Shown: positions 17,465-58,600 of the stretch, one piece after another
Layout: the number at the start of each line of letters is the position of its first letter
How positions within the stretch are numbered: the stretch's first letter is position 1
Source of the DNA: Paramecium tetraurelia
Taxonomy: Eukaryota; Ciliophora; Oligohymenophorea; Peniculida; Parameciidae
Reading direction: 5' to 3'
Assembly: GCF_000165425.1 (NCBI RefSeq)
Contig: NW_001798988.1
Location: 13,204-77,203 of the forward strand
Length of the DNA stretch: 64,000 nt
Notes under the pieces: generated by a model
Database searches by the model: none
What the model saw: only the letters and a program-made list of their open reading frames with translations
Told to the model about the DNA's origin: nothing
Translations under genes and position numbers: made by a program

Positions 17465-20400
17465 TCATTTATTTTTGTTTGGTTTCTTCATATTTTCTAT
17501 TAAAAAGTTCTTGTCATGATTATGAGCAGGAATCTTGGCCAACTCATTATTTATGCCATGACCCTTAACGTTGGTTGGTGGGATGTATTTTGGTAAATGG
17601 CCTTTGAGTATGTAAGACCTTAAGGTTATATACAATTCTTACCAATACATGGATTCTGTTTCAATGATCAATTTGGCTTCCTTACGAATTCCGTATTCTT
17701 TAGGCTTAAAGCCCAATTTGAATTCAGTTCCTTTTTTACCATGTGGTTCTAATAGACCAGTTGTCGGTTCAACAGTGAATTCAGAATTCGAGTCAGGTGT
17801 AAAGTAGGCCTTAAAATTAGCAATTTCTTCAATTCTGTTGGTCAACCTAAAACTAACCTTTGTTAATTGATTAATTTCAGAGGTTATTACAATAACATCA
17901 TCGATTTGTGGTTCTAGAGCATTAACTTATAATTTAAATCTATAAATTAAATAGTAAGAAATACCTCCATAATCCACCAGATTCTACTTTGACTTGTAAT
18001 TCAGTTTGTAATTTGAAAGGCTTGTAAGGAATAAATCTAATATCAAAACTGAGAGGCTGTGTGACATCTTTAATGTGATGATCAGGCAAATTAATCTTTA
18101 GATGTTTCTTTAGAATTTCCATATCTGTAATTTTGTACATAACTTTCTCATTGCTTTTTAATCCATCTAACACAACATTCAATTTAGTAACTAAAGGTAT
18201 CCTGCATTTCGTTTATATGAAATGAACATTATTCATCTCTTCATTCTCAATCAAACCCAAAAGAGGATAAGTCCACTTGACTTGATGATTCATTACAAGC
18301 ACTAGATTACATCTATAGGATTTGATATCAACAGCGCTGAATTAGTAAGGTATTAGTAAACTGGATTAAGGGGCAATGGTAATTCTTTATCGTTTCATCA
18401 ATAAAGTAAATACTCCTTCATTTTGCTGTTGCATCTCCATTTGGACAGTCAAAGAGTCTTTCAAAGGATTTTTGAATTCAATTTATTAAGTGACAGATTG
18501 TCCTGCTTTACATACCACAGTAGTCTCTTGGAAAGGAGTTGGGGATTCACCAGTTCCGAAACATAAAAAGATCCACTTGCCAATTTCCTTAGTCTTAATT
18601 TAAATTTCACCGGAGTGAGCAGTAAGAGCTGAGGGCACAAATACAACGTAGACCGGTTTTAAAGTGTAAGGTTCCAAAACTAATTATTGGCCTCCCTCAA
18701 ATTCTAATGAGAAATTAGTAGGATTGCTATTTTCTATTTCTGCTACGATTGTATTGCAAGTTGGATTCTCAAGTAACATCTCACATTTATCTAATTTCCC
18801 AAGTTCAGTTTTAAATTAGGGGACCTTGATGCCTCCTCGATCCTCTCCAATAAGATTCAGTGTATACCAGATTTCACCCATTTTTGGATGACAGAATGAG
18901 ATACTACCTTTCCATCTTCCTTCTTATACTGGTTAGAATATTAACTAATATGTTGATGTTCCTCCTGGCAAGACTGAAAACCAAGGGTCCCCTGATAAGG
19001 CTTCACCTATAATTTGGACTTCATATGTAACATTTTCTGGCAAAGGATTGGCGATTTCGATATCAAATGCAATAGCCTTTCTAATTGGAGAAACCAAATC
19101 GACTGTGCCTAATGGTTTAGGATTAGCAGTATCCAACATAATGGTCCACCATCTATAATGACCATTTCCAGTGAAGGTGATAGATCCAGTGAATTGACCA
19201 CTAATTAAGGGATTGATGTTTAATTTGTATTCATAGGTTGTTTATGGTTAAATGGTAATCTCCTATTCCCCTGCAGCATTTAAAACATCTGTTTCCACAG
19301 AATATCTGAGTTCTTCATTGGTGTTATTAGCAACTGGAATAATTTGTGTGATTGGTTGTCTTGCCACTGCTTTTATCGTAAAATGTCCTTCTGATAAGGG
19401 TTCTTCTCCTTTTCCAATTAGTTAATACTCATAGAAGTCATTGGTTAAAGGATTGATAATAGATAGTTTGGCTTTAACCTCACAGATCCATTCAGGAGCG
19501 AATTACACCACTACTGCACCATTTGTTGGTTAATTGTTAAGTTTCTTCTTTATCAATTGTTCTTTTTAGACATTCTATTGATGGGAATCTTGATCCTTGT
19601 TATTCTTTTGGGTATTTTCTTTTGTGTCTTTGTGATCTGCAGCTTTCTCTTGTTTTCGTCTTTTGCTTTAGCCATCTCCTAATATTGAAAACCGATCATC
19701 TCCAACCAAATTGATCTTAAGATTAAAGTCTCGATCAGTATTATTGACAATGGGAATTTCTTATGTTACTACTTCCCTTGCTGGAATTGTCATCTCCAAT
19801 ATGACAGTTATTGGCTTTGGAAGTGAGGTTAATTAAATTCTAAATCTTCTTACATCAGTCTTAGTTTCATTGACTAACATAAAGTGACTCAGATAGTCTT
19901 TAACAGCAGTTTTGAAATTCATGAAAAAATGGATTAAATTTTGTTTATCATCTGATTTTTGAAGTTGTTACTAGGGATCCTCCTCATCATCTGAATTTTT
20001 GGTGTGATTAAGCAACAATTATTGGTAGTTGACCAATTGAAACACTTTGTCACAACTAATATAAGATTGCTGTTCCTCCAACTAGACAGAGAACATCACA
20101 TCTTCCATCGGTAAGTTAGGTTTAGTTTACAATGTAACTGAATTGGAATTTTGTCGATTTATTATTTTCTTCTTCTCAATTGTGAGTTGATCTACCTATT
20201 TCAATGCTGCCTTTAATTATGGATTGAAAAAGGGGACATGATGATAGAAGGAGGCTAGTTGATCTATGTACACTTAAAGATCAGGTTTAAGATCATATAA
20301 AACTTCAGGAGGTTCTACATTACCATGAATTTCATATTGGAATTCACCTACTTGGAGATCCTAAAACACAACCATGCATTTTTATTAATGCAATTAAGTG

Positions 20401-23400
20401 GGTAAGAATTGCATTGGCAAATTATACTAAGCTCCTCTTTTCAATCTGATACTCTCCTATTTACAAAAGAAAGCCGGGGGGAATTCGACTGAGGTTAATC
20501 TTTCCAGTCTTTGTTTTTCTTTCAATTCATTATCTGCTTCCTTTTTCTTTTCAGCCATTGACATAGCCTTCTTCTTTTTCTTAGGAGTCTCTATAACTAA
20601 TGGTACTTTAATTGGGACTATTTAAATAGTAAAATGACCGAATTCTGCATTTGTAAAAGTGTTTTAAACAGTTATACTAAATTCTTTCATCTCATACATA
20701 ATGGAACTAACAGTCCATATCTTTTAACTCATTCTTTCTGAAATCACTCCTTTTAATTCGTATACGATTGCAGCAGCTATGTTCTTATTACCTTTCTTAT
20801 TACAAAAGGTAATCAGAGCTGTTTATTCATCACTGATCCTTGAAGTGAATTTAATATTGTAATTGTATTTGCCTCCTGGTTCTATCTTAACTTGATCTTC
20901 TTCAATCGAAAAATCTGAGGACCCTTCCAATTTCACAAAATATACAATGGGATCTCTTGTAGTATTTGTTAACGTGATAGTCTTCATTACAATGGATCCA
21001 AGAACACATTTAAAAATTAGAGGTTCTCTTTTGGGCATGAAATTAGGCACCTAGGTGTATAATAGCATAAGCATCAATAGAGTCTCAGGATTGCTCATAT
21101 TAACACAATCATTGAGCACTAAATGAGACTCAATACCTATATCTTGGAGGCCTTTTAAGAAAATAGACATATTGCGACTGCAATCTTATTCTTATTTTGT
21201 TATTTAACCCAGAGGCTAAAAGTATTTCAATCCTCCTGGACCCAAGTAACTCAATAACATTGCTGTTAGGATGTGAGCATCTTTTAACATTCCAAAATTG
21301 ACAATCCTCACACTCTTTGATTCTTTCCAATATTATGTGGCTTAAAGTTCAATCCATCTTAAAATAAGCATTTCTTGGGTGGAGTAAACATTTGATTAAG
21401 GATATTCGTTGATGCTTCCATTTATCTATCTCATTGCCTTCAAAGTGACTCTTGGTAAATAGTAAATACGAAGGATTTGAGTAAATAGTATCAAATAAGA
21501 AGATTTGGAAACTTGATCAAATTGTTACTATGAATATTTTTGAAAATCCGGATGAGTGAATTTCATTTCAATTGTCTTTAAATACAATTAGTAATCATCA
21601 TAACTAAGTAAGTAACAAGGTCTAATTTAATTTAATAATGCTCCATCTACCTTTAATTGAAGCAACAACTCTTTGTATTGTTAATAAAGCAATTAGGAAA
21701 TCTAAGATTTCTGCTTAATGCCTTATAATTGAGCTCGAAAGGGGAACTAAGTTTTACCAGTCAGAAATGAAATGAGCTCGAAAATGTGATGACCTTACAT
21801 TAAGACAATAGATGATGGGAATATATCCAATTGGCCTACAAATTAATTGTACCATCTCTACACATGTTCACATTTACTTTCAATAGCCTTCTCTGATATC
21901 TATTGAGTTGATGTTAATTTTCTATGAATAGACTCCTTGCTGTCCTCTGATTCATCAGTCTAATTAATCTCCGTTAAATGAGGCACTCCCTTGATGAGAC
22001 TGATTTCTGATTGATTATCATACATCCATGTAGTAAATGAGCAATTATCACTAGTTGCTGAAACACTGATACTGTAACTATGCTGAGTTTCATCAATGAT
22101 TTCTAGAGTTTAAGAAATCGAAATTGGATTCTAAGCTGTATATTTAATCATCATGTCCAAATATTACTTTGTAATTCCGACAGTCTGGCCATCTAGAAAC
22201 TCTACAGTAAATCCTTCTAATGGTTTAACTGATAATTTTTATGTCTCAAATCCATCATTAAAAACTTTGAACTACAATTTGGATTCTATTCCCAAAGGGA
22301 CTGGACACAGTATTAACTCTCTTCTATCAAATTGGATACTCGGTTTTGCTGCTATTCCATGAAGTTAGACAATTAAATATGGTTGTCCTGGTTTGCTATC
22401 TTCTAGATAAATTTAAGCTTGTTTTTAATAGGTTCCTTCGTATCTTGGATTGAACATTACTTTAACTCTTAAAGTTTAGCCAGCATCAACTCTTCCAGCA
22501 AGAGGAATCACTTGAAAAACTGATGGAATATTTCCAGTATCAGCATCGATTTATATTTTAAATTACATTCCTTTGTATTCAGGATTGGACAGCAAGATTT
22601 CCTAAATATTGGGTTTGTTCTTTTCAGGAGGAGACAAAATGATCTTTCTTGGGAAATCTACAGTTTTTGGTTCCACTATGAACTTAGGAGAACATCCATA
22701 CACTTAAACCATTCTTTTTATAGAATCAATAGCTCCAAATTTATAGATTTCAATAGGCAATTAAAATGAGTATCTTTTTAACTCTTTAGGATAAAAATGC
22801 AATTGAAATTACACAGTCTGTTGAGGTGTCATATTCAATATGTATTTCTTATTTTGACAAATCATCTTCTTCTTCATTCTTGCAGATGAGAGTAAATCAT
22901 CGTCTGATTCTTCCTACTGCTCTTCTTCTGTATAGTTCTTTAGGAATTCTTATTATTGTTTCAATATCAGACATCCAACTCCTTCATTGGCCTCTGGATT
23001 TATGTCTTCATTTCTTAGATCAAAAATTAGTTTGACTTCAACATTGCTTTTGTTGGCAATTGTTAAGGGTAAGGCAGTCTAATTACCTAATGTAGTAACA
23101 TCTCCAAAATCAAATAGTTGCTATGTTATGATAACATTAGGAACAATACATTAGGCTGTCAATGGTATCCTGATTACTCTTCCAGATCTGAGCATCATCA
23201 ATATTTATGTATTAATGTTGTTGGGTTTGTCACAATTGATCTTAACAGTAAATTCCTTATTCTCATCAGGCAATATTTTACCAGAAGATGGAGACACAGT
23301 GCAACCCATAGGTAGATACTCAGTCAAAATCTTAAATATTGCATTGTTTCTGCTTGTATTTTTGACTTAAAATGGCAACTACTTTTCTTGTGCAACACAA

Positions 23401-26383
23401 ATCTCTGAGAATTCAACAGTACTTTTACAAACACATTTAACATCACTTACTAATCCAATGCATTTCAATTAGATTTCAGAACCATCCTTCACTTTTAAAA
23501 TGATTTTCTCTTCATCTTGTCTTGTAGGATTCTAATTTTTAAATACTGCATCACTCTCAGAATCTTGCGGATCCTTCATTATTTTACTGGGAGTATAGGT
23601 AATTTAAATAATTTAATTAGATTGTCCCTAAATAATTCCATTCAAACAATCAAGGGTGAATTTGGATCCTTCAGCCTAAATGAAATTGAATTATGCTGGT
23701 CCTACACCATTATTACTTAATTTGATGGAATCATTCACACTCATGCCTCCATCTTCATTAAATTACATTTTAACTGTTGTTTTAGAAACCTCTAATTTAA
23801 CTGATTCGACATTGGCCACAACCATGATTTCAAACGAATGTCTCTCATTCAAAATATATCTCAATGTTTATTTCAATTAACCTAATGATTGAGCCTAAAC
23901 GATTATTTCAAATTATCCTTCTTCGCCACTATCTATCACTTAAGGTTCTTGGAATGTCTTTTTCAATTCTTCCTTTTTGTCAATACAAAGTCTGGCTATG
24001 ATGGCATATCTCAAATTGTTATGTATAAAAAACGTTCTTGACATTGGAGTGTTAATGTAAATTGTACCATAATCAATTTTTATGGGTCCTGCTTAAACTC
24101 TCTTCAAATCATCTGCTGTCAATTCCCTGTTTACATCTCTCACTTGTTTATGAGATTATGGTCTCCCTGATAGTATTCTCTTGACTGGTTATTTTGGATC
24201 AGGTTTGAAATCTACCAATTCATCATCTTATCTTTTTAAAGGTTCATACTATTGGAAGGGTTTGACAACATAAAGACCCTCCTTATGATATGGAATATCA
24301 ATATCATTATCCATGTTATCCACTTGCAATCCCAATTCAAATTCGTAATCCTTAGGAGGTTTTGATCCCTCATCTTTCTACTTTTCTTATGCTTTTGTAA
24401 TTGTTTCAACTCTCTATTGAATTATTTATTATCTCTATTTTTCTAATCGATTATTCCTTGAATCCTATAGGAAATTGTTTGTCTACATAGCAGCTTTGGG
24501 TTTTTTCTAAGTATCCTCAAAGTATCCTTCTACAATATTGCCAGGCTGATGATTTTATTCAATAAGTTCATTATTTCTCTTTTTAACATATTCTATTTCT
24601 TTAGTATCGATGAATTTGGGATCTATTTAGAAATCTTCTGCTCTAGCCTCAGGTCCTCTAGTTTAAGGTCTCTTTTTGGCTATTTTCATGGCTTCTCCAT
24701 TGACTTTAACTGGAATAGTCAAGTAATCATTGAGTATCATGTCTATACTTTGAGAGTATTTTCCAACATTTTTTGGAGTAAATTTAACTTGGATAGTAGT
24801 TTAAGATAAACCATTAATTGTGACACTTTCAGGTTTAAAAAAGAAACAAGAAACCTTTTGAAATGAAATGTCCACTGGATAGGTTTACAAATTAGAAATG
24901 GTGAATAGAATGTCTTTATTGTCATTGACATCGCAATCTCCAAATTGCAATGCTTATTTTGATATTCTTACTAAAGGGAGCAATGCCTTGACATTAGTGT
25001 AAGCAATCAAGTCTTCATCAGGTTATTGAACAATAATTGAGTATTTGATTTCTCTAGTCATTTGCTCCTTCTCTACATCAACTCCAAAACAGATTTTCTT
25101 GGCTAATTGCTGTTCTTTGGGAGTTATTTGAATCATGCAAGTTAAGGATAACTCAACACTGGAATATGCTTAGACATAGCCTGTAGATGGTTGGATAACT
25201 AATAGTTTCTCACTCTATTCTATTCCTAATTCATTGGGTGTTTGTAGGTTTACAATATCATCATTTGGATTTATGATGCCTCTTCTTGCAATGATTTTGA
25301 ATTGATGACCTTTGGGAGCGTTGTTCACATATTTCAATTTGATGACTTTAGATTTGCCCATGTAAAGTTCTCCGAAATCCAAGGATGTCACTTGGGAGCC
25401 TTTAGAATCCATTAGGAATCTGGTGTAATCGACTGAACATGCAGCAATATCCAATTTTTGGGTTCCACCTTCACTGACAATATCCATGGTCTATCGAAAG
25501 TTGCCCATCTCATTAGCCTTGTAGATGATGCTGATCTATTGATATTCTCCAGGGGCAATAGTGATGAGATTAGGCAAGGCCCTTAGATTTAAGACATCGC
25601 TTTTTACTTGAACTTTAGCATCTGCGAAACCCACATTTTAAATCATTAATGATTTGGTATTTTCTGTACCTTATTATACAAATCCAAAATCGATGAATTC
25701 ACTAAATTTTAATTTGGAACATGCTCTATATGCAGCTAAATGTACTTCAGCTCTAAATTCATCAGATTCTATAACAATTACATCTTTATAAAAGGGAGGA
25801 GGTTTCTGATGTTGATTCAATGCAGCAATATCTCGTTCCGATTCCTTAAATAAAACAAGAACCTTCAGACCTAATCCAGCAGCTATGCCTTGTTGCATGT
25901 CATAATCAGCTCGGAATTTGGAAGCTTCCTTAAATACGAATAATTACTTTTGGGTTGTTACACTCTGATTCTGACAGGATATTTGGCCAAATTCTGCACA
26001 TTCAAGATTTGCTCATAAAGGATTCCAGGTTTGATGTCTTCGAATATTATTTCTTTGGGGTCAATGTGAAACATTTCCTTCACAATGCTTCTAGTCGATT
26101 TTGCTGCACTCTATATTCGTGTACCACCAACCCTCGTTTAGCCACTTTGAATTCGTGTGTAACCACTCTGTATGCGTTGACTATTATTCGTTGGCTGGGC
26201 AAAGCTCCCTATGCCAGACGGGACTCTTTGGGCAGATGGAAGGCCTGGACTTCTTTGCATTGCCGATTACACTGTTCTTTGATTTTATAAAGTCATCAAC
26301 GAAGGTTTTGCAGATTGGCTTCTTTGATTCGATAAAATTGGTTAGAGCGAACCTCCTGTAGTTGTGGGGACAGGTTGTTACAT
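17465..26383 (-). CDS. CFAP47: CFAP47-type ciliary protein (MSP/ASH repeats plus calponin-homology domain)
   Basis: Three exons: 25948-26383, 17965-25924 and 17465-17939, with introns 25925-25947 (23 nt, AAG) and 17940-17964 (25 nt, TAG), encode 2,956 residues. I checked the central 7.96-kb exon codon by codon for TGA and found none. After a T/S/Q-rich N-terminus (about 100 residues) there are many immunoglobulin-like MSP/ASH units, e.g. IIFEDIKPGILYEQILNVQN, LDFGELYMGKSKVIKLKYVN and RKAIAFDIEIANPLPENVTY. Near residues 1655-1770 sits a calponin-homology domain (ILRWIELQ, RIVNFGMLKDAHILTAMLLSY, LGIESHLVL-like). Arrays of such units around one CH domain and a length near 3,000 fit CFAP47, a central-pair protein of motile cilia. 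HYDIN is larger and lacks this CH placement. Confidence 0.85.
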
Positions 26384-36436: not shown

Positions 36437-36736
36437 ATGTGTTTCAATACTAATCTCCATAAGTTGACTGAAAATAGAGGTCCATCCATGGAGTGTTTGT
36501 TATATAAGATGCACATCATTAGAAAGAGAATCCAAGTTAGGCAAATGGTTATCAAACAACCCTACTTACGGGAAGCTAGACATTTGATTGTTAAAAATAA
36601 AATTAATTGTTTTACATATTTTTAAACTCTAAAGCAAAAATAATTCAAAATTACTTACATTTTAAAAATAAAACCTCAAGAAATCTTTGTCTTTAAATTT
36701 CAAATAAAAACAATGAGAGAGCCACTTAAAAAATGA
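36437..36736 (+). CDS. Possible small protein, 99 residues
   Basis: A TGA-free frame with ATG at 36437 in the 390-bp gap between two divergently placed minus- and plus-strand models. The first 60 residues (LTENRGPSMECLLYKMHIIR, then RKRIQVRQMVIKQPYLREAR) look coding in composition. The second part is K/I/F-rich and AT-rich like non-coding DNA. No family. It may be real, or a chance frame in a 5' flank. Confidence 0.3.
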
Positions 36737-38439: not shown

Positions 38440-38621
38440 TAAAACTTGTAATGAATTTAGATTAATAATTAAAAATTATTTATACTTCATTAAGGAATAG
38501 TTTGAGAATAATATGAGAATAATATGTATTTTGGAAAACTTCAATATCTGAAATTTTTGATTATAAATTTTCAATTAAAATTTCTAATTCCTTGATAAGA
38601 TATTTTCTTATTAAAAATTTA

Positions 38622-38864
38622 ATGGGATGCACATGTAGCAGTAAAAGAGAGTAATCTCCTTAGAAGACAATCAAATCAACTCAATCTACTTCAAATCAAC
38701 TACATCTTCTCATAGAAACCAAAATGTTTAAAATCTATAGACCTCATCAAAAATTATAAAATGTAAGTAATTTCTTAAAAATATAGATCTCTAACAGTAC
38801 AATATTAACAAGAAGAAGAATAAAAATGGAAATCAAAGATCTCGAATACTAAGAAACTAAATGA
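38622..38864 (+). CDS. MGC microprotein A (predicted myristoylated/palmitoylated)
   Basis: Begins MGCTCSSKREQSP: Gly2 fits N-myristoylation and Cys3/Cys5 fit palmitoylation. The frame runs to TGA 38862-38864. Positions 38763-38786 (24 nt, GTAAGT...ATATAG) are an intron in phase 0 without a TGA, so the spliced product has 72 residues and the unspliced 80. The intron is supported by a paralogue at 45036-45244, which has its intron at the same place: KLQN|ISNSTILTRRR here against QLQN|ISVSTIIQRRK there. The body is basic and S/T-rich, and the C-terminus is charged. Likely a membrane-anchored small adaptor; no known family. Confidence 0.75.
38763..38786 (+). other. Stopless 3n intron (24 nt) in MGC microprotein A
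   Basis: Starts GTAAGT and ends ATATAG. Its length is divisible by three and it contains no in-frame TGA, so retention would add eight residues instead of stopping translation. Confidence 0.7.
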
Positions 38865-39019
38865 AAGTTATTGTTTTTTTCTTGATTATTTTTACAAAAA
38901 TAACATATGCTTTCGTAATATCGTTGAGTATATCTGTCAATACTCCCGATCTAAAGGCTGTGCTACACAACTATTGTGGTTTGTTTATTTGGCAGAAGCC
39001 CTAGATTTTAGGAAGGTGA
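38861..39019 (+). CDS. Possible tiny secreted peptide, 52 residues
   Basis: The ATG overlaps the TGA of the preceding gene (ATGA). The frame begins MKVIVFFLIIFTKITYAFVI, which looks like a signal peptide, then about 32 residues with one cysteine to TGA 39017-39019. Same-strand overlap is unusual in a eukaryote, so this may be 3' flank or an exon of an unrecognised gene. Confidence 0.2.
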
Positions 39020-39711
39020 AATAAATCCTAATTTTTGATCAAAATACTGCTTTTAGGCTAAAATTGTCAAGAGAATACAATTGAATCTTAATTATTCGAT
39101 AATGACAAATACGCCTAGCCTATTTTTTACAGATATTAAAACTATATTACATCAAAATAAGTTTAATATAAAATATTCTGATAATTATTTTTAAAGCTAA
39201 TATGTACATCTTTCCTTTTCGATATTATACACTTCATCTAATACTCTCAATATTAATAAATATATAAAAAAAAATTAAATTAACCTCTTTTATTTGTTTA
39301 CACCAAAGAGATATGACCATTTAAATCTTTTATGATAAATTATTTAATAATTAAAATTATATTGCATAATATATATTAAAAGTTGTAATAAAGTATTAAA
39401 TAGATAATAACACTTATTTGTGTCTAAATGGATTCAAATGCACTTGGATTTCTAATAATTTCTCTAATATTTATAAAATTAGACAGTGTATTCTTCTAAT
39501 TAACTATCAATAATTTCGCATTCAATAAGATATATTAAACTAAAATTATTAAGAATTAATTGAATTCCGTATTACAAACTAAAATTGATCCCTTCATAAA
39601 TAATATGAATTAGAATTAGTTCTAATTAGAATTCTATGATTTTCTTCAAATTTTCATAATTTCGAAAATTGAATAAGAATGTTAAGTTAATATAATTGTA
39701 ATATTTAATTT
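39020..39711. other. Intergenic, very AT-rich, no supported gene
   Basis: About 690 bp. A plus-strand TGA-free stretch of about 90 codons from near 39056 has no start codon and no domain. The rest is A/T runs. It holds the 3' flank of the large minus-strand membrane-protein gene. Confidence 0.5.
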
Positions 39712-42700
39712 TCATAATTAACGAAGAATATTAATAGCTTATTAATCAATTAATTCTACCGGAATAATCGTCAAGGATAATCTGATTAAGTTGATTTAGT
39801 TTTGTTGAACTTTACTAAAATAGATTAATGCTAATCCAATTGCTAACAAAGTGAAACATCCAGTTATCATAAAATACACAAGAGCTTCATTAAAATTACT
39901 TTCAATTTATTCATATGCTAATTTTAAATTCTCTTGAGCAAATTAATCAAAAGCTTATTTAGCATTCGTAAAGTGTCTTCCAAACATCTAATTGAAATCA
40001 GCTGAATTCAGCAAAGATAGTGTATTTTGAAAATCTACATCAAGCATTTTATTTTCCAATTCATAGTAATAAGATCCCATTAAGTAATTAATAATTTTTG
40101 TATAGATGCCTATTATTCCTTTATTATAAAGATATGTGCAATTATCTTTGATATCTGGAGAAATAGGACAAAAGATTGAGCAAATATCTTAAAAAAATAG
40201 CTGATTTAAAATGTCAGCATTTTTTGAATTGATATTTGGATTCTTGATTAAATCTTATATTATTTGAATTTGGCTATGCTTAAAGGAATCGAACTAAATA
40301 TAAAAATAGGTTAAATTTTGATAACGATCTTATATGAAGTAATTAGCAGATTATTACAACGTCTTTAGTGATATAGATTCTGTTAATGAATTTTGACTCA
40401 ATAGAATATTCTAACTCTTAATTCTAATTGCATTGCTCACAATAGAATCAACTTGAATGGTGAAATGAAGAAATTCAGCCCCTAGTTGATACGAGGGTTT
40501 GAGTTGCTTTTATTTTTAAGAATTAAATAGGAAGCCTCCAATATTAACAATTAGAATAATTAAGAGTAGAGCAAATAAGAATGCCGATATTGAACACATG
40601 TTAAATGTTGACTATTAAATTCTTGATGAAAGCAGTGTTGTTTTTTTTTATTTAGTATTTGTTGTGTTGATTTACTATTGTTTATTTAGTGGCTAATAGA
40701 TAATGTGCACATAATCAGCCTTCTTCCAGTTGATTGAGTACTTGTCATTTAATATTTCTCTCACACTTTATAATTTTTGGATTGTCACATAAACATCTTT
40801 TTCATACAATCTGCAGTTGAGATGCAGAATCTTCATGTGTAACTTCAACAAATCAAAAAAGAACCAAAACTGTAAGAAAAACATGCAAAATTATAGAATA
40901 GTTTAGATGACGAATAGATTCAAAATCAATTCATCATTTAAGTCTAATTCCACATAGAATTTATCAATTAAGGATCTAATTAATAATCTAAACAAATTTG
41001 TACTATTTTCTAAATTTAAAACTTCAAAAAGAGATTGCTGAAAAAAGTAATCGTTAAAATTACTAAAGTTATTATCCTAATAGTATTTTATTAGAAGTCT
41101 GAAATAAATAGTGAGTTTGGAATAGTAATAAGTGTAAGAAGTATTAAATTCATCCGCTTAATCAATATAGTAAAGTGTAATGTTGGAATTTAACAAATCC
41201 TATTCAATTTGATGAAAGACTGGTTGATGTAGAGACATGTTTTATAAGTAATTAAGATTTTTGAATCTTGATTGAATGGTATTCAATAAGTTTTAACTTA
41301 TTTGAATCCCTTCTACTTTGGACAATTTTTAGAGAATATCATGAGATGTTAATTCACAATAAATGCCATTAAATACATACGGTGCTTAGATCTCAAGAAG
41401 TTATTTATTTCCATTATCTCTTTATTCACTTATAAATATGACATTCAGAATATTAAACAAGACAACACTTAAAACAATACAAATATCCAAGAAAATGATA
41501 AAACTTAATTAGATGGGTCTGGCTTGAGATCGTGATTTCATTTTTAACAATTCATAATGATGATTCCTCGATCTTCTTGCAATAGACCCACCAGAATGTA
41601 TAGCCTGCATTTCATTTTTTTAATCTATTTATTAGTCATTGTTATTATTTGATGACTATTGATCCTGCAGTTTGTCTAGTACTGTCTTATTTTTCGAGTA
41701 TTATTATTGAAAGTTATGATTTTCATATCCTAATTCTTATTGTAATTTGATTATCTTGAATTCATCCTCTAAGTATTTAGAATCATCATTCATACTTTTG
41801 TGTTTGATTAAATTAAAAGTAGCCCTTTGTGAAAAAGGAGCCAAGATTTATCTTGAAGATTCTTATAATTGATCAAAGAAGGATTGATCATATTTACCTC
41901 TCATTAAAGATATTTCTGGGTGTTATTGTAATTTATCATTATCTTCCACCTTCCCTTTTGTAAAGCTTTCATCCTAAATGGAACTTAGCATTAAATGACT
42001 TGATTTATTTAGATCGGACAACTCAACGTTTTACAAACTATTTTATGAGAATGTCTCTCCATTCTCAATGTCTTAAGCAGATATAATGTCATTTATTTCT
42101 AAAGTGAATAACGGAATAGATTTTGAGTAACCAAGTATGAGATACTCTAAGTAACATTTAATCTAGAAATTTGTGGTTTGAAGATTTTGATCAATAAATT
42201 ACTACATCTTTTGCTAATAGGTTTCATCAAACAAATCGCAATTGGGTTTTTGAGAATCAAATAAATTCAGATTTAACATAGATTTTTAATTTTTTTGTTA
42301 ATTTTCTGGAGTATCAAATGTTGTCCACAAACCTGCATAATATAATTAATGTTTATTTTTGCCTTTTGAACTTTACATCAATTTTGAAAACTATTACTTG
42401 ATGGGATTTCCAATTTTTAAAATAATCTTATCGTCTTAGTTATTTTCTTCTTCTGAATTTCGATATGCATTAATTAAATTGAATATTTTTGGGATTAATT
42501 AAAATACATACCCTGAAGACAGATGTTCTTAAGTAATTGTTTTATCTATTGTTTAAAGTAATTTGAACATTAAACTATTGACACCTAAGATTCTACCCTT
42601 GTGATCAAAAAGCATGAATAGACATTTTTCTTTTGTTTTGGAAAATGCAGCCGTTATAACATAATCATCATAACTGATAAAGAAATTATCAATAGTAATA

Positions 42701-44568
42701 TCTGCAGGAATGTAGAAATTATTTTTGCCTTTCAGAAACACTGTTCTACTCTTACCAAATAAAATGCTATGGCCTAACTTCTTAAATCTCTCAAGATATT
42801 GATCATGAACAGATGCTAGAAAGTCTGGCATTAATTGATTTATGTGTTTGATATCTCTAAAATCCATTTCGTTTTCGTATCCCCAAAATTAAGCTATTTA
42901 TTAAGCATTTAATTTTATGATTGATCCTTATGATTTAACAATACTGGTGTACAATAAACAAATTTTATTTTCCATTATGTTACCGTTAAGTAGTTTTCCT
43001 TCAACCAAACTTTCAGATCGCAAAATGTCATTCATTACTTTCTACATCTTAATAGCTTATTCATAATCGTTTATAATTATTGCATAATAAATTATCAACA
43101 CCAAGACTTCTAGGACTGTTCTTGGCTCCTCAACCTATTCGATATTGGTACAATTATATAACTTTTACAATACTAATCGACATTCCAATAATTTTTGACT
43201 CAATAAACATGTAGTCTAAAATAGTTTCTTTACATTTGAGATCAATGATATCAATTATTTCCAGTAATTTATTTTGTGATCAAGAGTACTCAGAATCAAA
43301 GGAATGGATATTTCTCGTATTTTAACTGCCTCATATATATCCTTTGTAGATAGAATGCGATCATCCTAATATTATCCTGCCTTTAAAAGTTGATTTATTC
43401 CATCCTAGACCTTTGTAACTGAATTCCACAATTATTTATGTTGACTTGGAAATGTTATTCTAAAAAACAAGGAATGATCATGTGGGATATTATAATACTA
43501 TTTTAGTCGGCATAGTGCAGTCAAGGGAGCTTTATGAACACATAGAAAGTGGATTAAGGCTAATTCTAAGATCTCATAATCGATTTTCTACTTTTTATTT
43601 ATTGTTATGTTATTTTCTAAATAGCAAATTAATACTTCATTCTTTTTTTGGTCTTCATGCTAAGATACACATTTGTTTTTGTGCTGTCTTAGTTTTAAAT
43701 GCTATTGAATGTCCTATGATTAATAGAACTCTTGGCATTAAACTAGAATGATATATTAGTTTTAAGAATCCATGTCTGCGTATCTGTCATATAATTGAAA
43801 TGAGAGTGCATAGGCAAGAGTGCCTATTAGAATTGTAAAATAAAAGATATTCTCCTCTGATTTATTGAATAACATTAGGGTATGAATTACAACCAGAGTG
43901 TAAAATAAAAAGTTATACTGAAACACTATTTTATTAAACTAGAACTTGTAGGGTTTAAAGATTATAATATCTAAGCAAAGGGCTATTCCCTAAATGTGTA
44001 GTAAAATTATTTGCAAAATGTGAAATTCAAAATCAATGTAGCAAATAGTGTCCAATGCTGCACTAATTACTGTCAATTAAGTGAATTTCCGTATGAATGG
44101 ATTACTATGAATAAATTTAGTTGAACGATTAAAATAGAGATTAAATACTAGAATAAAAAATAAGAGCAGGATTCCAAAAATTGATATTCCAATATTCCCT
44201 GATGAACTTGAAAGCATTGCTACTTAAGGTATATAAAATACATTCCATAAAAGGTTATTGTAATAGAAAACGAATTAAACTTTGAAAAAGCTGAGAATGA
44301 AGATTATAACATTGAATAATATGAGAAGTATTTTAAGTATGTCCGATATCTCTTGATATAAAAAGGACAATATGACATAAGGAACATGCAATTTATAATC
44401 TGTGTATTTCCAAACATCCCATCCATCCTATGGGAATATGAAATGGAGTCTCAAAATAAATTACAATAAAATGGCACTTTAAAATAGTGATTCTCCTAAC
44501 TGAATTTTAGGAGATGAAGTCATTAAATCCAAATAATGCTCGATAAGCCTTTAAGTTAATTCCATCAT
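39712..44568 (-). CDS. Large multi-pass membrane protein with internal PAS-like module
   Basis: One uninterrupted frame of 1,618 residues; I checked every minus-strand TGA in this frame and found none. N-terminal third: about seven hydrophobic helices (e.g. IGISIFGILLLFFILVFNLY, LALCLDIIIF-like, TILIGTLAYALSF). Around residues 560-680 is a PAS-like region with the ciliate signature INQLMPDFLASVHDQYLERF, then FYIPADITIDNFFISYDDYV and LFMLFDHKGRILGVNSLMF. A long polar linker follows. The C-terminal third has four helices (about 1010-1035, about 1200, about 1290-1310 and VYFMITGCFTLLAIGLALIY). This layout resembles large ciliate TmcB-like/PAS membrane proteins. A sensory or mechanosensory role is only inference. 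Confidence 0.8.
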
Positions 44569-45035
44569 AAGCCAAAAGATTAAATTATTAAAGCTAAATT
44601 AGCTATAAACTTAATAATAAAATTAATATCAATTTATAAACAAGGAACCACACAAACAAGGTTTACCACCTCAAATATCCTTAAATCCATGAAAGACAAT
44701 CAGTTCTTCGTTTATTATTATCAAAAAAACTCTACAAGATTTAAAATTTGTTTTAAACAAGTATTTACATTCTCATTCATTTATTTTTAATGAATTGCAA
44801 TTCAAACCAGAAAAATTAATTAATTTTCTCAAGCCTAAAAACAACAACTAAGAATTTGAAACCTTTTGATTGGAATAACTGAGACTACTTTTGTTTAAAG
44901 GGTATTTCTGTAATATCAGAAGGCCAATCGAGTAAATAACACCAGGTAAATAATTTTAAAGAAGAATTATTGTAAATATTTACATATTTTACTAGTATAA
45001 TCAGATAAAATATATAATTAATATATCTCTCTTCC
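44569..45035. other. Intergenic, AT-rich, no gene seen
   Basis: About 470 bp upstream of the large membrane-protein gene, which should include its promoter. No frame of interest. Confidence 0.5.
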
Positions 45036-45244
45036 TCATACTGAATATTTGCCAAAATTTTTCCTTCTCTATATTATAGTGCTAACTGAAATCTAAATGT
45101 TTATAAGAATTTTACATTCTATAATTAGGGTATTCCATTTTTGTATTTATTTGAGAATGCCAAATATTTTAAGTTTTTTGGTTCACTATCGAAAGATGAC
45201 CTGCTACTTTTCTCGCTTCTGCTCTTTGTGTTTGCACAACCCAT
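45036..45244 (-). CDS. MGC microprotein B (predicted myristoylated/palmitoylated)
   Basis: Two exons around intron 45093-45115 (23 nt, GTAAAA...TTTAG) give 61 residues. It begins MGCANTKSRSEKSSRSS, again with Gly2 and Cys3 suited to dual acylation. The end of exon 1 and the start of exon 2 read QLQN|ISVSTIIQRRK, matching microprotein A at the same intron position. The body is S/K-rich and hydrophilic. It lies between the TRAPPC11-like gene and the PAS-like membrane-protein gene, about 6.4 kb from copy A and on the opposite strand. Function unknown; a small membrane-tethered peptide is the best guess. Confidence 0.75.
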
Positions 45245-45345
45245 AAATAATAATATATAACTTAAAAAACGAAAACACTTGATTAATTAAACCAACTAAT
45301 AAACGTAGACTAATAATAACCTGAACAAATATATTTTTTATAATT

Positions 45346-48249
45346 TCAAGGTAATATTAAAATGGATTTCATTCCTGAAGAATCGAAAACTAACTGACTA
45401 GGATTATTGGGCTGTCTGATTTCTATTAAAATTCCAGGAAGATTGCACTTTCCAAATTCAATTGGAAATAATAAATAAGAAAAAGTTGCTTCATCCTCTA
45501 CAAATTTCATCTATTTTATCTTGCCCATAATGAAGAATTGCTTTTTATCTTGGTCCTTCAATTGAATGAAATAATTTTATGGTTCTCTAGTCTTTAATTT
45601 TACAACAATTTCAAAAGTCTATTATGCGTTGGATGTAGGGGGAGATATTATTTCCACATTCTGCAAATATGATATCACATTGACATTCTCAACATCAACT
45701 ATAGCTTCATAATTCATCTAATTTCTTGTATATTTGATTTTATATTGTCCAAAATTGGAGTAAGTAGTTTAATCCCTGGTCATAAAAATAACATTCAATT
45801 TATTTTTATTATAAAAATCAAGATCAACAGATGGTACAAATTCAGTTTCAATCAAATCAATATTTTATACTTCCAATTAAACTGCGCATTTACTAAAAAC
45901 ACTCAAAGTATTTCGATTTCTATTTTGAGCATTCTAAAACACACTGCTTAATTATTTTATTTTTATAAAGTAAATGAATGGGAAAACAAACTTAATCTTC
46001 TTAAAATATTCTTCACCCTATATTTTGAATCCAACAATTCTATCATGAATAATGCTATCTGTTATTTGTAAAGTAAATTATCTGCTATTTATTGTATTAT
46101 TGTTATTTTCCTTTAACTTTAGAAGGCAATTCTTGTTTAAATTAAAATTCAATAACTCAACCTCCGTTTGATAACTCAATTCCACCTCAATTTCATTTAA
46201 TTCGTTGATATAGGCAAAGTCCTATTTAAATGTAATGATAGGAGGATCTCTTTTATAAGTGGATAGCAACCCAACTTTATATTTGTTCGAGTAAAGTTCT
46301 ACATCTTTGGCAATAATTTTAATTGATAATTTATCCCTATTTATAGCAACAATTAAATTACAAATATTTTCCAAAAAGTTGAATTTGAACTGGTTTTTCT
46401 ATATTTTTATCTGTTTTTATAATTGTATGATTTGTTGCAATAAATTCTATTTGTTGGTTCTTACTGATAATTAATCCGGTCTCAATCATGTCTAAAATGT
46501 GTTGAGTTATATTCATATCTATTTTTAACTGAATACTTTGTTCATCTGATTCAAGTTTAGAAATAGAAATGAATGTGTTAGCAGGAACAACAATATCTAA
46601 ATTTTCACTTAATTGCTATGCCAACTTCTTGATGTCCTAAATTTTATCCTGCTCATATATTAAAATATCGCTGTAGATTTGTATTTATTTTGTCAATTGT
46701 GCTGATTAAGCTTCTAAATATAGGATATTTTTGTATTCGTCAATTAATCCATAAGAAATTAATTGATCAGCAATTTAGGATTTCAATTCAAAGTTTTAAG
46801 TGATTAATATTTACAAGTATTTAAAATAAACATTAGCATAATTGTTTTGATTCTAACTATTTTCATTATACTGTTTCCAAAAATCAAAAATGAATTACAC
46901 ATTAGGGGCTAAGTTAATTTCATTTCTTCTATAATTGATTACGTGCTTAAAATAGAATAGCTTTTAATCTGATTTTATATCAATAGGCTACTCATTCTCT
47001 TTTTCTCGAATTTAATAATTTGGTCTTCCTAAATATTCAGGTTCTTATTTCGAAATTAAAAAGCCAAATTATTGAATCGATTAATCGGGGAACATATCAT
47101 TAAGTTGTATCAATTTGATGTAACTCAGCAAAGTCGCCTATAATTATTTGATACATATGTACTTGGAAATAGTTATACACAATAGTATAATTGGTTACCA
47201 TTAATTTAGATTCAATAAATTTAATAATAGCCACAAAGATTTTGACTCTCCATAAATATTCTTGTATTTCAAACAATTTGTGGAATATTAAATTTTTAAA
47301 GGTTTTGAAGTGAACCTCAAAGTGTTAAATTACATCTTGAATTTCTAAATTTCTGAATAATTTGAATCTTAATTGATCAGCAATCTATAATTTTGAAACA
47401 TTATAATACTTCTCTATATTCTTCTGCTTGTTAAATCAATTCATAGGAAGTGTAAAATGAATTATCATCTGTAAAGTTTAAGTAATCCTTCCTTTTTGTT
47501 GCCAATTAAGTCACAATTTCATAAGATGTTTACATATGCTTATTTGCCTTTTTTGCATTGTTTTCAATTTCACTAATTAGAGTTTTCTTGATTTCAAAAA
47601 TTAACTTCTAGTCACTCAATTCTGACTTTTACAATTTGCTGGTTTCAGACTTATACTTATTAAATAGTTCTTAATAGAAAGTGTTTGAGTCATCCACAAT
47701 CGTTTTCTTGATTCTAAATTAAAATTTAGTGGCTTTAAGTTTACCTTTTCAATTGTTGACCAATGTTTTCAAATTCGACTGCAAAGACCTTTCTTAAATC
47801 AATTTCCTTCTTTAGGTAATTAAAATCAAATCCACCTACATTTTTACCTGTAAGTACTATAGTGATTTTAGGTTAGAAGGATTTAGCTAAAGAAATGGTT
47901 TACTTTAGGATATTGTAATTGTCTAATAGTTTATCCAATTTCTCAGCTATAATAATTCAAATCTATACGTTCAGAGATGTCATATATCCATATAACAACA
48001 GAGGGAAACTAAAATAATAATAATGTAAAAATACAGTTTTTAATTTGTGAAGCCACGACAATTTAAAAATTCCCCCACCTTGATGAGATTTCTTTTTATA
48101 ATCCAATTCAAGCAAAATAATGAATCTAAATAGATTTTAATTCCTTACTATTGCATACCACCTTCAAAATTAGTTAATTGACTTTTTAATTTATCCTTGT
48201 AATCCCCTAGAATGCAAATGATTGATTTGTTGGTGGTTATTAAATCCAT
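45346..48249 (-). CDS. TRAPPC11 (foie gras/gryzun)-like trafficking protein
   Basis: Eight exons with seven introns: 48126-48148, 48009-48034, 47947-47968, 47714-47744, 47385-47409, 47138-47162 and 46337-46361 (22-31 nt, all TAG). Together they give 908 residues in one frame. The N-terminus has an alpha/beta look (ICILGDYKDKL, FPSVVIWIYDISEPEK, PKITIVLTGKN). Helices follow; QLRFKLFRNLEIQDVIQHFE with VHFKTFKNL resembles the TRAPPC11 foie-gras region where a helix pair precedes 'F..H'. The C-terminal half is beta-rich, ending FIMGKIKQMKF and LFPIEFGKCNLPGILIEI, like the immunoglobulin-like end of TRAPPC10/11. TRAPP subunits act in ER-Golgi traffic and autophagy. I am sure of the gene, moderately of the family. 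Confidence 0.6.
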
Positions 48250-55648: not shown

Positions 55649-58600
55649 ATGTTATTAAGAGGAGGAGGTTGTGGAAGTTCAACACCAAAAGATTAATCTA
55701 ATGTCATTACACCTAAACTGTTTGAATAGAAGATACCACCAGATTTGGTTAATTAAATAAAACTGCACTCCACTAAAATTGCTTAAAATGCTGTTCTAGT
55801 TTTGGATTAGCAATCAAATTTAATGAATAGTTTTTCTTTTTTTTAATTGAATGCCAGAGCAATATGGTTATTGGTGAAAAATTAAAAATACACAAAATAA
55901 GTTATAGATTTAGTTTTAGAGAGTTTAGAGTAACTTTTTCCGGCTTTCAAGAGTTTTCTCTAATCTAATCTATTATTTGCACTATACACTTCATAAATTG
56001 TAACCTAGTTGACTTGGGTAATGTTTACATTCTTTTCAACAAATAAAGACAGGTTTTTGGAGTTATCTAAACAATAATAATATTTAAATGAAATGGATCA
56101 AATAAGTGAGAGATTGGAAATAGAGAGTGACTCTTCCCGTTACTAAAATCACATTGAATATGAAATATTCGTAATTTAAGCGATTATTTTTATTACGCCG
56201 ACAAATTCAACTGAAGGTAAAGAAATTCTTGTTAAATTTTTGGGAGGTGCATTCAAAGCCATTGCAACATTTTCATTAAATGATGATTTGATAGATAGTT
56301 TAAAAGATGGTGTAGCATATCTATATCAACAAGGGATTAAATATTGTCGATTGAAAAAGTTGGAATTGATTTATTCTTTACTGACTTTAAAGTACGATTC
56401 TATGGATTAGATGGAAAGAAAAGGAGAAACTAAATAGGTTGTTGAATAGTTAGGAAAGATTTATAGTGAAATTATCAGAGAATCTAATGATTGGGAAATA
56501 TGGTTTACATGGATATAAATCCTATCTTAATTGTATTGTTTCAAACCTATATTGGAGAACATGTAAATTGATTAGCAACTCTATGAACAAATTACATTCA
56601 AAGAATACTCTATCCCCATTATAAACAATAAACATGTCCTTGCAATAAAAAATCAACATATACAGAGTGATTAGACTACTAAAAAGTTATTTGACAATTC
56701 TTTAATATTGCAAGGACAAGCTCTTTTATAAAATATGATTTTGTAAGGCCAAGGTTTATTGCATAATATGGAGTAACAATACTTTGCCAGATTATAAATT
56801 CAAAGAGATTCCTAATAGGAGTAAGAAAATCTTATGCCTATCTCTTCAGCCAAAATCTCATCTATCCTCAATGTAGCCAAGCAAGCATAGGAGGAACTAG
56901 TAGAATTTTATTAACTAATAAATTAAGATGATTTAACTGATGAATCGAAGTTAAAATAGGCTGAAAAAATATTGAAGAATCAATAAAGAGCTTTGTTGAC
57001 TTTATTATCAGAAATAGAAAATGTACAGCGTTTACAAAAACTAGTGCAAGTACTCATTTAGAATTCAGAAAATGGCAATGATATTATAGAAGAATACTAC
57101 TAAATTTAATAATTAAACATCTAATAATATTTAAATGGCCTTATTAAAAGTTAAAACAATAAATTTTAGGAGACATTTTAAAAAGATCATTTTGTAGTAG
57201 TTATTGATAACTTGTTCTTAAAGTCTTCCAATTCATAAGACTTTCAAGTATAATTACAAGGATTTAAATAAAAATAAGATGATTAAAGTGTAGTGAGAAG
57301 TCTTATAGAAGCAATAAAAAAATTGCAATATGATTCGAGCAAATCTAGAATATTGAGTTTGGACTCTTTAATAGGATTGAATAGTGCAATATCATTAATG
57401 TTATAAGAGAAAGTAGCTTTAAACTGGAATCTTGAATTGAATTTGGTTTTATAAGCAAGGATAAAAACAATAAGTAATGAAAAAAAATAAGAAGGGAATT
57501 CTTAAACTTATTAACAAATAGTATAAAATGGTAATTAAATGATCCCATTTGAATCTCTCTATTAGTCAATAAAATTCTTATATACACAATACACCTAGTG
57601 CGAAAGCAATTAGAAATTTAAAACCGCAGAACTTTAGTTAACTAATAACCTTGAAAAACTATTAAAGACTCTATTGATTGAAAATTTTGGATCCATTAAT
57701 CATATTAGTTAGCTTTTGATGAAGAATTTATTCAAGGAAATCAAAAGGCCAGAGGATGTTAATTTCGATATAGAAATTCTGAAAATGATAGAAACTAGAG
57801 TTCAAGATACTATAAATTATGTCAATTAAATATAAAGTTCAATCAAAATGATCTCAGACTTTCTAATGTATGAAAAAGAATCGAATGCTGATAATAGAAC
57901 TGATGTTTAGATATTAATAGATTAAAAACCGTTAGCAGAAATATAGAAGATATTTCAATAAAATCAAATAAATAATTTCTAATTGTCAGTGTGCGTTTAA
58001 AAATTGAATTCCTATTTTGACTCTTTTTTTATAGTGTTCTTAAATTTTGAAAATGCTTTGAAGGAGAATGATAAATAGTTCTATCATTAAGTACTAGAGA
58101 AGAAGCAATTCCTTGAATCGTTGTTATTCTTTTTTTAGTCCTTAGTATCATTGAATATTCTGAATAAGAATGATTAAGAAGTGGCTAGCAGGCTTAAAGT
58201 GGATATAGATAAGAAATTCTAATAGTTACTTGATTTGGAAATAGTAAAGCCCGCAAGCTTTAATATTGATACTAATAATAAATTAACAGATGATTTCTAA
58301 TTTTATTAGGACATTTTTAGTTAATTAGATGATATAAGATAAAATTAAGAAGTTTCTTTAAATAAAGTTAAGTAATTTATAACCACTTGCAAAGAAATCT
58401 TATTGCAAGTTGAGAATCTAAAGACTGTGGAGAAACTAAGTTAACAATTGCCAGAATATGAGACTATGTTGTTGGAAACCAAAAAGTTCATCGATTAACT
58501 TATGGCAATGCTGGATATTAATTCTTTAAATTTAAAAGTAGAATATGGGACAATTCAAAATCTATTAGAAAAAAGTTAGAATTATCAGTATCAAAGGGAT

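Follow-up and report, generated by a model that had tools for sequence, protein, structure and literature searches.

The question raised by this 64,000-nucleotide stretch of the Paramecium tetraurelia genome (hereafter the window) is whether two very short open reading frames (ORFs), A and B, which both begin with Met-Gly-Cys (MGC), are real and related genes, and what kind of protein they may encode. The window corresponds to positions 13204-77203 of contig C35 in an assembly of 69 Mb and 231 contigs, which was the target of the genome-wide searches described here; its G+C content is 23-34%, and its long frames are open under translation table 6, features that together with the short introns and the duplicated blocks described below indicate a Paramecium of the aurelia type. 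The analyses show that A and B are homologous, that their reading frames are under purifying selection and that they belong to a genuine family of four microprotein genes of Paramecium type. Judged from sequence, these microgenes probably make small lipid-anchored proteins that share a short and strongly conserved tail.

A (72 amino acids) and B (61 amino acids) are found on the forward and reverse strands, respectively, with their 3' ends pointing toward each other and an ORF of 1638 amino acids in between; stop codons included, their coding sequences are 219 and 186 nucleotides long. The original prediction held both genes to be too short for standard gene finders, which may or may not be so: the available text of one study (PMC5485702) describes a minimum of 300 nucleotides for a transcription unit in the Paramecium annotation pipeline, but adds that more short genes were probably captured by its newer annotation. 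Common to both genes is the motif LQN|IS.STI..RR, which spans a phase 0 intron placed at the identical codon between LQN and IS. The two genes, their lengths and strands, the MGC starts and the shared junction motif had all been put forward in the original prediction, made from the letters of the window, and each was recovered here at exactly the predicted coordinates.

The likeness between the two junctions is far above chance. Admissible junctions, defined as introns of the form GT...TAG of 18-34 nucleotides with no stop within the 13 codons around the junction, were scored against the junction of A. Only three of the 1018 admissible junctions in the window scored at least 10 of 13, namely that of A (13), one that uses an alternative donor of A (10) and that of B (10); the next-best junction scored 5. 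The maximum score was 6 in 20 windows simulated with an order-2 Markov model and 5 in the reversed window, which offered 2105 junctions.

Each gene also has a partner on contig C108. The genome search with A as query identified A' at 299326-299469 (E 4.1e-8, 48% identity over query residues 1-48), while that with B identified B' at 296983-297120 (E 5.6e-4, 43% identity over query residues 1-46). Homologues beyond the window, whose existence the original prediction had made a matter for further search, therefore do exist, and the only ones found are these two partners in the same genome. Their surroundings form an inverted collinear block (window ~27.4-55.5 kb versus C108 ~307.6-288.1 kb), and this preserved but inverted gene order marks A/A' and B/B' as block duplicates. 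Whole-genome duplications are described for the aurelia complex in the available text of PMC11334263, and the block event is taken to be the recent one. Silent divergence (dS) is 0.79 for A/A' and 0.84 for B/B', inside the range of 0.55-1.43 for six neighbouring comparisons, one of which is a 123-codon fragment. The introns of the four genes are 23-25 nucleotides long and fit the published range, as about 98% of P. tetraurelia introns are 20-30 nucleotides long according to the accessible part of PMC5485702.

These partners also bear on whether A and B are related at all. Over the alignment A is only 25% identical to B and 36% identical to B', K37 is the sole residue outside MGC and the core that is invariant among the four proteins, and the whole-genome search with A missed B just as that with B missed A, so that the shared motif and intron site might have arisen in unrelated genes by chance or convergence. 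We give this explanation very little credence, as it would have to account for 10 identities in 13 positions at a shared splice site, for the recurrence of site and motif in A' and B', for an exon-2 pattern that occurs exactly in these four genes only, and for genes that are close together in both blocks.

The fate of the neighbouring genes on C108 provides a comparison. Five neighbouring proteins of the window were searched by tblastn over C108 286.0-299.6 kb at an E of 0.01, and one of them was matched, namely the product of the gene beyond B, which is reduced there to a relic of 35 residues (296772-296876). In the same search the 1638-amino-acid protein had no match between A' and B'; its gene appears to have been lost from C108, since it is unmatched there though kept at 66% identity on contig C211. 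An ORF at 36.6-37.8 kb of the window was also missed, uninformatively, because its counterpart would fall outside the C108 stretch searched. Both microgenes are intact on C108, while one larger neighbour is undetectable and another is a relic. Upstream of A', at C108 ~300060-300210, there is a run of 150 N, which may be an assembly gap or a repeat; it is bordered by near-repeats in direct orientation and by some sequence of unusually high G+C content.

The ratio of replacement to silent divergence (dN/dS) is 0.38 for A/A' (67 codons) and 0.39 for B/B' (61 codons). The proportion of silent differences (pS) exceeds that of replacement differences (pN) in both pairs, with bootstrap 95% ranges of pS-pN from 0.085 to 0.402 and from 0.019 to 0.463, respectively, and all 10 invariant residues of the 13-residue core show silent codon variation among A, A', B and B'. 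The junction score and the same site in the partners bear out the kinship of A and B that had been predicted. Nevertheless, constraint is stronger in the six neighbouring comparisons, at dN/dS of 0.06-0.16, a difference that fits relaxed constraint on the microgenes too, and C211, the older paralogous contig, yielded no member among the matches listed. A and B could accordingly be remnants in decay, derived from a protein that was formerly longer or mattered more, with frames that are still open by chance. We consider such decay improbable, as start, stop, frame, intron site and core are kept in all four copies and every invariant core codon has changed silently at a partner dS of ~0.8, and as larger neighbours decayed meanwhile.

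The flanks of A versus A' and of B versus B' were also aligned and scored against 100 shuffles each, and flanking DNA was found to be conserved on three of the four sides tested, i.e., in the two upstream flanks and in the downstream flank of B (Table 1). At its far end the upstream flank of B extends into the 3' end of the neighbouring ORF (45346-46485, reverse strand), which may explain part of that match. Such conservation outside the frames would suit DNA that is functional as an RNA or a regulatory element with only an incidental frame, an explanation that we regard as highly improbable, since silent sites have changed more than replacement sites in both partner pairs and the 10 invariant core codons all vary silently. 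Within the downstream flank of B, a stretch with TTTTATCTGATTATACTAGT is almost unchanged in B' and is possibly part of a 3' untranslated region or a termination element.

How large is the family? A pattern of exon 2 built from the four genes had exact matches at four places in the genome only, one in each of these genes. When one mismatch was tolerated it matched 7 places versus 6 in the control direction, and a looser, intron-spanning pattern matched 6 places versus 2 in the control direction, three of the 6 being family genes; B' was missed by the latter because of its codon AAC. None of the six non-family places matched by these patterns has ATGGG within 300 bases upstream or an MGC exon; one of the six is part of a kinase-like frame. 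Protein searches of the same genome returned nothing beyond A, A', B, B' or their exons; they score the best candidates only, and very divergent members could escape them. Two further contigs are paralogous to parts of the window, probably through an older duplication. Gene order on C211 (519-549 kb) follows that of the window at 31-48 kb and 55-64 kb, the 1638-amino-acid gene included; this region contains no ATGGGNTGY site and, among the matches listed, no microgene, although the neighbours are kept. On C2 (687-717 kb) collinearity is limited to about 30-36.7 kb of the window, and there is one unrelated 24-codon frame. Lenient tblastn searches for the microgenes on these older paralogous contigs gave chance-level matches only, among the matches listed. 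The A/B pair is either younger than the older duplication or was lost from the C211 and C2 copies.

Outside this genome, pattern matches on viral contigs (29) and on contigs of prokaryote genomes (27) included no confirmed relative, as expected for a ciliate gene. None of the four members has a Pfam match over the cut-off; below it, one of the four resembles FERM_F2 (E 0.0071, 16.7 bits versus a cut-off of 26) and one AAA_6 (E 0.076). No sequence match was found in the PDB at E up to 10. No description of the family was found in the titles and abstract openings of the open-licence papers listed, which is weak evidence of its being unpublished. The original prediction of an undescribed, membrane-anchored family thus stands for a family without Pfam or PDB match, while the membrane anchoring is consistent with the sequences.

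N-myristoylation sites follow the PROSITE-type pattern G-{EDRKHPFYW}-x(2)-[STAGCN]-{P}. The N-termini of all four members fit this pattern, with M, G and Cys3 invariant, and the N-myristoyltransferase family PF02799 was found over the cut-off on four contigs (C14, C155, C189 and C200) and in none of 14 control genomes. The dual-acylation-type N-terminus that had been proposed for A and B is therefore present at the level of sequence. The four proteins have net charges of +8 to +12, and S, T, N and Q together make up 36-43% of their residues. The linkers and far C-termini of A and B differ, and B ends with KYSV and B' with KYSL. The longest invariant stretch sits in the tail rather than at the N-terminus, which suggests that the genes may be real but the acylation of MGC absent or unimportant, the tail serving as a cytosolic or nuclear inhibitor or adaptor peptide. 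We regard this as unlikely, though not negligible: M-G-C is invariant in all four members though the following positions differ between the A-type and B-type proteins, and both the fit to the pattern and the encoded N-myristoyltransferase are consistent with acylation.

We propose, with confidence that is about evenly divided, that A and B are real paralogous microprotein genes whose products may be dually acylated membrane tethers with the conserved tail as effector. One ancestral two-exon gene would have given rise to A and B through an inverted duplication at the locus that preceded the block duplication, as the synteny suggests, and each of the two encodes a short, basic and S/T/N/Q-rich protein. 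Most likely, Gly2 would be myristoylated co-translationally and Cys3, plus Cys5 in A and A', palmitoylated, and the protein would then reside on the cytoplasmic face of a membrane, be it the plasma membrane, the cortical alveoli or the cilium. The middle region would be a fast-evolving linker, while the C-terminal LQNISxSTI(L/I)xRR may act as the effector, a short linear motif that is bound or phosphorylated by a protein partner. As their linkers and far C-termini differ, the two paralogues could present the same ligand in two settings that differ in membrane, in timing or in amount. A more specific version, which we offer only tentatively, is that these are Paramecium-specific lipid-anchored peptides in which the anchor and the 13-residue tail are the only strongly constrained parts, the tail acting on one partner (a kinase, phosphatase or channel) and the paralogues splitting membranes or stages.

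Several observations weigh against the proposal of functional, spliced and acylated paralogues, in addition to the near absence of invariant residues outside MGC and the core and the stronger constraint on neighbouring genes. Of the four ATGGGNTGY sites in the window, two stand in other contexts, which makes MGC alone weaker evidence. The core is without an amphipathic signal, helical or beta, in all four proteins, and a membrane-binding helix in the core is consequently not supported. The downstream flank of A is not conserved relative to A' (score -16 versus a shuffle mean of -14.8). The intron of A' starts with GTTG, whereas those of A, B and B' start with GTA, and the intron of A belongs to the stopless class with a length of 3n that is selected against in Paramecium, according to the available text of two studies (PMC5485702; PMC11334263); the GTTG donor and the 3n stopless intron cast doubt on splicing efficiency. 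If retained, the intron of A would add VSNFLKIQ and would not trigger decay.

Table 1. Coordinates of the two microgenes, their partners on contig C108, the conserved flanks and the intervening ORF (window positions unless C108 is given; nt, nucleotides; aa, amino acids).
Feature	Position	Strand	Description
A exon 1	38622..38762	+	MGCTCSSKREQS...KLQN, 47 codons; acylation-type N-terminus; partner A' on C108
A intron	38763..38786	+	24 nt, GTAAGT...TAG, phase 0; 3n, without in-frame TGA; site common to A', B and B'
A exon 2	38787..38864	+	ISNSTILTRRRIKMEIKDLEYQETK, TGA stop
B exon 1	45116..45244	-	MGCANTKSRSEKS...QLQN, 43 codons; partner B' on C108
B intron	45093..45115	-	23 nt, GT...TAG, phase 0
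B exon 2	45036..45092	-	ISVSTIIQRRKNFGKYSV, TGA stop
A'	C108 299469-299329 plus 299303-299241		67 aa; 25-nt intron, site as in A
B'	C108 296983-297111 plus 297135-297191		61 aa; 23-nt intron, site as in B
Upstream of A	38472..38621	+	106/141 bases identical to A'; score 92 versus shuffle maximum 48; probable promoter and 5' untranslated region
Upstream of B	45245..45394	-	102/144 bases identical to B'; score 88 versus shuffle maximum 36
Downstream of B	44886..45035	-	106/136 bases identical to B'; score 92 versus shuffle maximum 24; probable 3' untranslated region or terminator
1638-aa ORF	39712..44628	-	No Pfam match; genomic context, not a family member

Elsewhere in the window, an ORF of 2704 amino acids (17898-26012, reverse strand) has CFAP47, HYDIN/CFAP65 and ASH domain matches and probably encodes a ciliary protein. 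Contig C82 carries an identical 50-base sequence at 36441-36490 and 58542-58591, on opposite strands and ~22 kb apart; the two copies sit in closely similar cysteine-rich frames, which points to an inverted duplication of a gene for a cysteine-rich protein.

The N-termini of the microproteins resemble those of SH4 type in Src-family kinases and Galpha subunits, in which M-G-C is followed by S or T and Lys within a few residues, but unlike those proteins the microproteins are 61-72 amino acids long and have no kinase or G-protein domain (no Pfam match over the cut-off). Among alveolates, ISP1-3 of Toxoplasma form a family of inner membrane complex (IMC) sub-compartment proteins, for which the available text of PMC2936552 describes N-terminal residues that are predicted to be myristoylated and palmitoylated and are needed for targeting, as well as a functional C-terminal part like the tail proposed here; the likeness is one of description only. 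As conserved coding ORFs of fewer than 100 codons, A and B are comparable to the microproteins of eukaryotic small ORFs, although they differ from such microproteins in general by being a spliced pair, by the conserved motif that spans the splice site and by the retention of duplicates after a block duplication.

Small acylated proteins are easily overlooked in compact ciliate genomes with introns of 20-30 nucleotides, and A and B provide a clean case, in which each of two paralogues is matched by a copy from the duplication and the conserved core crosses the intron. The core is a motif to seek in other ciliates, and the genes are a small target for gene silencing. The finding would be of greater importance if the partner of the tail were a known cortical or ciliary regulator.
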